This document shows, piece by piece, positions 6,640 to 59,818 of a stretch of DNA of 64,000 nucleotides. The notes under the pieces were generated by a model that did not search any database, was not told where the DNA came from, and worked only from the letters and a program-made list of their open reading frames with translations. The DNA comes from Desulfurococcales archaeon (lineage in GTDB: Archaea > Thermoproteota > Thermoprotei_A > Sulfolobales > Fervidicoccaceae): assembly GCA_009904015.1 (NCBI GenBank), contig WYEQ01000002.1, positions 124,001 through 188,000 of the forward strand. The letters run 5' to 3'. How positions within the stretch are numbered: position 1 is the first letter of the stretch; the number at the start of each line of letters is the position of its first letter. The position numbers and the translations under genes are program-made.

Positions 6640-6725
6640 CTGACCTCCTCCCCGCTCTTCAGGGAGAGGGTTCCCCGCATCTGTTTGGGGCTACATCTGT
6701 CACCTGCTGGGGATGGGGCGGTTAC
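6640..6725 (-). ncRNA. Third, shortened copy of the omega-RNA-like element (right-end part)
   Basis: On the minus strand this region reads ACAGATGTAG, then CCCAAACAGATGCGGGGAACC, then a hairpin arm ending GCGGGGAGGAGGTCAG at 6640. The same blocks occur in the same order in the long elements at 28562-28804 and 59098-59350. The left end (AACTGAAAGCC hairpin) is missing, so this is a truncated copy. It sits upstream of the ABC importer on the opposite strand. Base run downstream of the right end, where a guide would lie: GTTTTATTAAATAGAG. Confidence 0.6.
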
Positions 6726-28556: not shown

Positions 28557-28804
28557 TTTACAACTGAAAGCCTCGCCTTTATAAGCGGGGATGAGTAGAA
28601 AAGCTTTTCTTGTTTTAATCAAGAGCTGTGGTTGCCCTTAGCACGTGGATGCGGGGAGCGCAACCACTCATACAAACCGTGATGGGGGGAATCTCTGGCC
28701 ACCCCGACTGCCCCGCAAATGAAAGATGTAGACCCAAACAGATGCGGGGAACCAATGAGCCGCCCCAAGGGAACCCTTGCCCTTTAGGGCGGGGAGGAGG
28801 TCAG
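28557..28804 (+). ncRNA. Full-length omega-RNA-like element A (TnpB-less IS200/IS605 derivative)
   Basis: TTTAC (28557-28561) is followed by a left-end hairpin AACTGAAAGCCTCGCC..GCGGGG. A ~190-base interior contains GTGGTTGCCC, GCACGTGGATGCGGGG, GATGTAG and CCCAAACAGATGCGGGGAACC. A right-end hairpin CCCTTTAGGGCGGGGAGGAGGTCAG closes at 28804. The interior is almost identical to the minus-strand copy at 59098-59350, and the right third recurs at 6640-6725. No transposase or TnpB ORF is present. The layout is that of an omega RNA scaffold followed by its guide (GGTCATGCTCAAAAAC). The DNA is extremely GC-rich compared with its flanks. Confidence 0.65.
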
Positions 28805-28943
28805 GGTCATGCTCAAAAACTGTAGAGCTAAACCCTCTGCGTGGTTGTTCGCTACACGTCTTTTTTATATCGATGATTTTAGGTAAATATAGAGTGATGC
28901 TCATTAGAGCCGCATCAAACTAGCTTTAAAGGAGGAAGCCGCT
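28805..28943. other. Intergenic tail after element A
   Basis: With element A and the space upstream of it, this fills the 515-base gap between moaA and the isomerase gene. 28429-28556 holds only the moaA upstream region. 28805-28943 carries the putative guide, an AT-rich run (GTTTTTTATATC, 28857-28869) and CTTTAAAGGAGGA, which combines a TATA-like box and a strong ribosome binding site for the TTG start at 28944. Confidence 0.4.
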
Positions 28944-33237: not shown

Positions 33238-33276
33238 CTGACTTCCTCCCCGCCATGAATAGCAGGGCTTTCGGCT
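33238..33276 (-). repeat. Solitary IS605-type hairpin
   Basis: Minus strand: AGCCGAAAGCCCTGC, loop, then GGCGGGGAGGAAGTCAG ending at 33238. It matches the right-end consensus of elements A and B with one change. It begins 11 bases after the integrase remnant. Confidence 0.5.
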
Positions 33277-59022: not shown

Positions 59023-59097
59023 ATAAACATGAACTAATAAGGATGAGCATCTAGGGATAAACGGAAGGAGGCAATGAAAAACCATCAAACCCAATGT

Positions 59098-59355
59098 CTG
59101 ACCTCCTCCCCACCCTATAGGGGTCCCTCGCCCTTTAGGGGGTTCACTGGTTCCCCGCATCTGTTTGGGTCTACATCTTTCATTTGAAGGGCAGTCGGGG
59201 CGGCCAGAGACCCCCCATCACGGCTTATATGAGTGGTCGCGCTCCCCCGCATCCACGTGCTAAGGGGCAACCACAGTTCATGATTAAAACAATAAAAAGC
59301 TTATAAGCTCTTATACTTCATACCCGCCTTGAAAGGCGAGGCTTTCAGTTATAAG
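59098..59355 (-). ncRNA. Full-length omega-RNA-like element B
   Basis: Minus-strand copy of element A: CTTAT target (59355-59351), left-end AACTGAAAGCCTCGCC..GGCGGG, the same long interior (GTGGTTGCCC, GCACGTGGATGCGGGG, GATGTAG, CCCAAACAGATGCGGGGAACC), and right end GGTGGGGAGGAGGTCAG at 59098. The two copies differ by scattered substitutions and small indels, so they diverged after separate insertion. Putative guide ACATTGGGTTTGATGG. No tnpA or tnpB. Confidence 0.65.
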
Positions 59356-59700: not shown

Positions 59701-59818
59701 GCTTCATCCCAATTACAAATCGGTCTCTACACGTTAATTACAGTGTTTATTAATGCTCAGGAACACGTGCCTTCATCAACCATCAGGTTCGTGGCAACTC
59801 ATCATTGCATAATAAATT

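Follow-up and report, generated by a model that had tools for sequence, protein, structure and literature searches.

The locus at 28558..28804 (plus strand; element A) in a window of 64,000 nucleotides from contig WYEQ01000002.1 of a Desulfurococcales archaeon raises the question of what a transposon-like element without transposase or TnpB is, and whether its interior is an omega RNA. Element A and a second full-length mini-element, B (59098..59354, minus strand), began with TTAC or TTAT, followed by a left-end (LE) hairpin, an interior without a long open reading frame and a right-end (RE) hairpin ending GGAGGAGGTCAG. The coordinates given in a preliminary description of the two elements were confirmed, as were the LE hairpin, the GC-rich interior, the RE hairpin ending GGTCAG and the absence of tnpA and tnpB. 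However, the same description spoke of two near-identical copies; identity between A and B was only 83%, and a search of the 1.33-Mb genome (assembly 92% complete) with A as query recovered 47 matches, comprising 22 full-length copies (A and B included), a tnpB remnant and partial copies, with 18-19 solo hairpins in the genome as well. No Rfam family matched A or B. A C/D box RNA, sR5 (Rfam RF01304, 44.8 bits), was located at window positions 59756-59808 (minus strand), upstream of element B.

The full-length copies were about 245-283 bp long (n = 22), and those other than A matched it with E values of 1e-37 to 1e-82, far beyond chance. TTAC or a close variant stood at the same place in all 22 (28558..28561 in A, plus strand) and is the left target tetranucleotide and candidate TAM; the 5' and 3' flanks differed between all copies. 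Shorter forms were also present. A 5'-truncated, internally deleted copy retaining part of the scaffold and the RE was found in the window at about 6640..6711 (minus strand), and a solo LE/RE hairpin element at 33238..33274 (minus strand). Such solo elements of ~40 bp, in which the start of the LE is joined to the RE hairpin, occurred in the genome (G000) at C5:27591, C6:4408, C11:110079, C20:79726 and 15 other places, and eight of them matched the search pattern exactly; they represent products of recombination in the full copies, or else minimal elements that are themselves mobile. When the flanks of the 22 full copies were joined, no recognisable open frame interrupted by any copy was seen, and no empty-site allele was found in a close relative for the 22 TTAC-like sites. 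An interior pattern search of named genomes, a set from which records of the own genome were possibly absent, gave one unrelated bacterial chance match only.

The right ~124 bp of the mini-element consisted of a tnpB tail (...MGGSLATPTAPQMTDVDPNR) and the RE, and the same sequence closed intact tnpB elements of related genomes. In G041, an intact 393-aa TnpB (PF07282), related to solved TnpB structures, ended in ...MGGSLATPTAPQMTDVNPNRWGEPPHL and the same DNA continued into the RE. In A, this part extended over 28682..28804 (plus strand), including the RE hairpin and terminus at 28774..28804 (plus strand); it was homologous to the tnpB tails of L031, L051 and L071-L075 and is the putative omega-RNA scaffold. 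The LE hairpin (28571..28590, plus strand) was common to the LE of Y1-TnpA elements, the mini-element ends also flanking a Y1 TnpA and TnpB element in G004 (L100) and adjoining a TnpA gene in G018 (L101). From left to right, the mini-element comprised the LE, AT-rich sequence in which a TATA-like box was usually present, a hairpin of ~40 nt (H1), the final ~60 coding nucleotides of tnpB and the RE. Deletion elements of like layout were found in at least five other genera, with tnpB intact or nearly so in several. The palindromes just inside its ends were related to those of IS605 elements; terminal inverted repeats and a transposase gene were lacking, and the family was dispersed in multiple copies. 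A and B are PATE/MITE-type non-autonomous IS200/IS605 elements from which the bulk of tnpB has been deleted.

Intact or nearly intact genes of the cognate tnpB group were present in G009, G029, G038, G040, G041 and G044. A genome search for a matching tnpB, one of the checks attached to the preliminary description, succeeded in related genomes, whereas the 92%-complete assembly of the own genome yielded only decayed pieces of the cognate gene, namely a broken C-terminal piece at C23:2640-2900 (L031) and a more decayed one at C37:57838. No Y1 TnpA was found in this assembly. A PF01385 profile search of the own genome gave no TnpB, and a PF07282 search returned the remnants and IS607-type TnpBs. 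The latter belonged to two IS607-type elements, each with a serine-recombinase-like ORF and a TnpB, at C26:50117-53314 (L032; TnpB intact, 431 aa) and C11:55175-58369 (L033; TnpB frameshifted). No DNA similarity between the IS607-type TnpB elements, L032 included, and the MITE was detectable.

H1 (28628..28667 in A, plus strand) was the most conserved segment of the element; judging by its position, its probable ancestor is a hairpin at the beginning of the tnpB coding region. In two elements (L064 in G047 and L131 in G044), the LE was followed by the first 80-100 nt of tnpB and then by a jump to the 3' module. In G009 and G040, the beginning of tnpB is able to pair as CTAACCCT.../...AGGGTTAG, G041 shows a related pairing, and H1 of the mini-elements lay at the equivalent place. 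Its sequence varied between genomes, with arms GTGGTTGC/GCAACCAC in the own genome, TAGTTGCC/GGCAACTA in G038, GTGGTTGCTC/GAGCAACCAC in G040 and AACCCCTCG/CGAGGGGTT in G044. In G040 and G044, H1 was far more stable than shuffled sequences; in A and B it was not (z -0.6 and -1.1). The autonomous tnpB genes of L070, L074 and L075 carried this hairpin or a related one at their 5' ends, directly after the start codon, where it may have a function in the tnpB transcript. In one element of G040 (L143, C47, about 145-421), the interior hairpin had its loop in reverse-complement orientation when compared with sister copies, as a flip of the hairpin at the DNA level would produce.

The best match to a TATA-like octamer lay 32-35 nt (~33) upstream of H1 in 14 of the 22 copies. 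The scores were weakly above those of shuffled spacers, with 55% against 37% reaching 7/8. Copy A had lost the consensus box; clearer TATA-like sequences, e.g., GGTTTATAAG, occurred in relatives.

Omega RNAs (reRNAs) are located at the tnpB 3' end and the RE. The putative scaffold occupied this place, as its homology revealed, and its secondary structure was conserved, as revealed by covariation in relatives. Among 31 module sequences of the relatives' set, which included the tnpB remnant of the own genome, the H2 stem (CCCCGCA/TGCGGGG; 28711-28717/28743-28749 in A, plus strand) and the long-range closing helix (CTGGCC/GGTCAG; 28695-28700/28799-28804, plus strand) were paired in 95.5% of cells, compared with 90.8% after shuffling. 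None of 500 shuffles reached the observed value, and slid controls gave at most 51%. One H2 pair was significant under a tree-based null when relatives were analysed alone (E 0.01), with GC, UA, AU and CG all occurring; no pair was significant when all modules were pooled. By contrast, helix pairing in the 22 own-genome copies did not exceed that in column shuffles, and compensatory change, which the preliminary description had suggested as a check, was not above shuffles either between A and B or among the 22. Its view of an omega-RNA-like interior therefore held for the right half, which is a tnpB 3' end plus RE with helices that covary in relatives, and did not hold for pairing within the own genome.

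H2 was fully paired in only 9 of 22 own-genome copies, compared with 20 of 22 in G044, G038 and G040, the comparison genomes with an intact or nearly intact cognate tnpB (p = 0.001). One scaffold pair was broken in 8 of the 22 own-genome copies. Divergence among copies in G038 equalled that in the own genome (0.80) and was lower in G044 (0.92) and G040 (0.87), so part of the contrast may reflect age. Well-paired copies in relatives and poorly paired copies here fit relaxed selection after the loss of TnpB. The H1 and scaffold columns of the own-genome copies were more conserved (0.85) than the LE/RE (0.78; p = 0.002) and the spacers (0.73; p < 1e-6), in a part whose GC-richness may slow or bias substitution. 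Among the own-genome copies, pairing was kept in 7 of 8 inferred helix changes on internal branches and in 19 of 48 on terminal branches (p = 0.02), with small numbers and with ancestral states that were parsimony guesses. We read this pattern as suggesting source elements under selection and resident copies under little or none.

Taken as a whole, the best explanation, and one we consider rather probable, is a PATE/MITE-type element whose mobile lineage would be a stand-alone omega RNA using TnpA and TnpB in trans, the resident copies being relics. Transcription from the TATA-like box would start at H1 and extend past the scaffold into the DNA flanking the 3' side; the product would be a stand-alone omega RNA that has this flank as its guide. 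A Y1 TnpA would move the element in trans. As long as the genome had a cognate TnpB, the RNA-TnpB complex would cut the empty TTAC+flank site after excision, restoring the element; that the mobile lineage used TnpB in trans is plausible. Selection would have acted on this lineage. The copies in the own genome appear now to decay neutrally, a step supported though short of proof, because in the 92%-complete assembly the cognate TnpA and TnpB have been lost or disrupted. The resident copies are probably relics, mostly decaying remnants and not working regulators. More tentatively, and with somewhat more doubt than belief, the family may comprise protein-less omega-RNA genes that parasitise TnpA for movement and TnpB for restoration after excision, with an RNA structure selected across several genera and the tnpB-derived 5' hairpin as an undescribed part of the guide RNA.

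The strongest alternative, possible although we doubt it, is an ordinary TnpA-dependent MITE, in which the tnpB tail was a passenger of the founding deletion and never a guide RNA, the LE and RE hairpins alone matter and the covariation comes from the parent tnpB elements. IS605-type transposition requires the ends only; the solo 40-bp LE/RE elements were many and very uniform, and scaffold pairing in the own genome at shuffle level is also as expected of a passenger. However, the RNA segments exceeded the ends in conservation, MITE families in other genera retained the module and its pairing, and the last ~100 nt were still present in short derivatives in G034. Retention of the module was partly ascertained, since the module belonged to the search query. 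If the omega-RNA reading is wrong, the family is one more decaying MITE family.

The preliminary description had also raised domestication, in which the elements would be omega RNAs that regulate genes by programming a TnpB encoded elsewhere, whether active or nuclease-dead. We regard this as very improbable. All 22 full copies lay outside recognisable open frames and an intact, unrelated IS607-type TnpB was present (L032), as regulators of this kind might have; however, the L032 element had no detectable similarity to the MITE, no intact cognate TnpB was found in the 92%-complete assembly of the own genome, and the scaffold stem was broken in the majority of copies. The putative guides of A (28805..28820, plus strand) and B (59082..59097, minus strand) were matched perfectly nowhere else in the genome. 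Each of these 16-nt flanks had one site with two mismatches in a search in which one control pattern of equal length also gave a match. The flanks matched their own sites only, apart from those two sites, and there was therefore no sign of host targets. The guides were merely unique insertion flanks, and every copy had a different 3' flank, as ordinary insertions would have. Retention, which had seemed otherwise unexplained, did not call for a regulatory role: transposition accounts for the presence of the copies, and host benefit is therefore not needed. That the copies are a host repeat, or a family of structured RNAs with no relation to transposons, has the least to recommend it and next to no probability, for while copy number was high and the copies were structured, non-coding and without an Rfam match, their homology with tnpB tails and with the LE/RE of IS605 elements, together with the TTAC-like target preference, effectively refuted it.

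If the omega-RNA reading is true, non-autonomous IS605 elements can borrow not only a transposase but, via a guide RNA of their own, TnpB as well, and so avoid loss on excision, which could help explain the high copy numbers of PATEs. G044 and G040 carry MITEs together with an intact or nearly intact cognate tnpB, making this reading testable there. A search of open-access papers found no literature on trans-acting or stand-alone omega RNAs.

The role proposed for TnpB resembles that in ISDra2, in which the guide RNA likewise lies at the right end, the guide is the 3' flank and the TAM is the left target site; however, the TAM of ISDra2 is TTGAT and its RNA lies beside an intact tnpB, whereas the site here is TTAC-like (PMC8612924). 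Karvelis et al. proposed that the donor joint, made of TAM+flank, is cut by TnpB with the right-end RNA and that the element is restored in this way (PMC8612924). The PATEs of Haloquadratum walsbyi are IS605-derived, transposase-free and multicopy; some (HqIRS71) retain the tnpB C-terminal region, and others were reduced to 52-bp terminal-only forms by repeat-mediated deletion of the core (PMC3119063). The family here shares with them IS605-type ends, lack of a transposase, multiple copies and divergence between copies, and the 52-bp forms resemble the solo elements. By contrast, the family here, from another archaeal lineage, retains H1, a TATA-like stretch and a scaffold that covaries, and the Haloquadratum PATEs were described before the guide-RNA role was known. 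A PATE-like element of Halanaerobium hydrogeniformans (271 nt) comprises an LE hairpin, the 3'-terminal 58 nt of tnpB and the complete RE (PMC7290912), an LE hairpin, tnpB tail and RE as here, but it is a single copy, and no N-terminal hairpin is reported in the accessible part of that source. The Halorubrum virus HRTV-DL1 carries a PATE of 489 bp with a strongly transcribed region that its authors take as an ncRNA (PMC10544981); it differs from the family here in viral location and size, and the likeness is one of description. SMN1 of Sulfolobus islandicus, a ~300-bp MITE mobilised in trans by ISC1733 (PMC3718332), is likewise non-autonomous and from a hyperthermophilic archaeon, again alike by description, and omega-RNA content is not discussed in the accessible part of its report. 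PATEs that keep tnpB tails are thus a known kind of element; the present analysis adds a census of the whole genome, traces the element to both ends of tnpB and offers covariation as evidence that the retained part is an omega-RNA scaffold.
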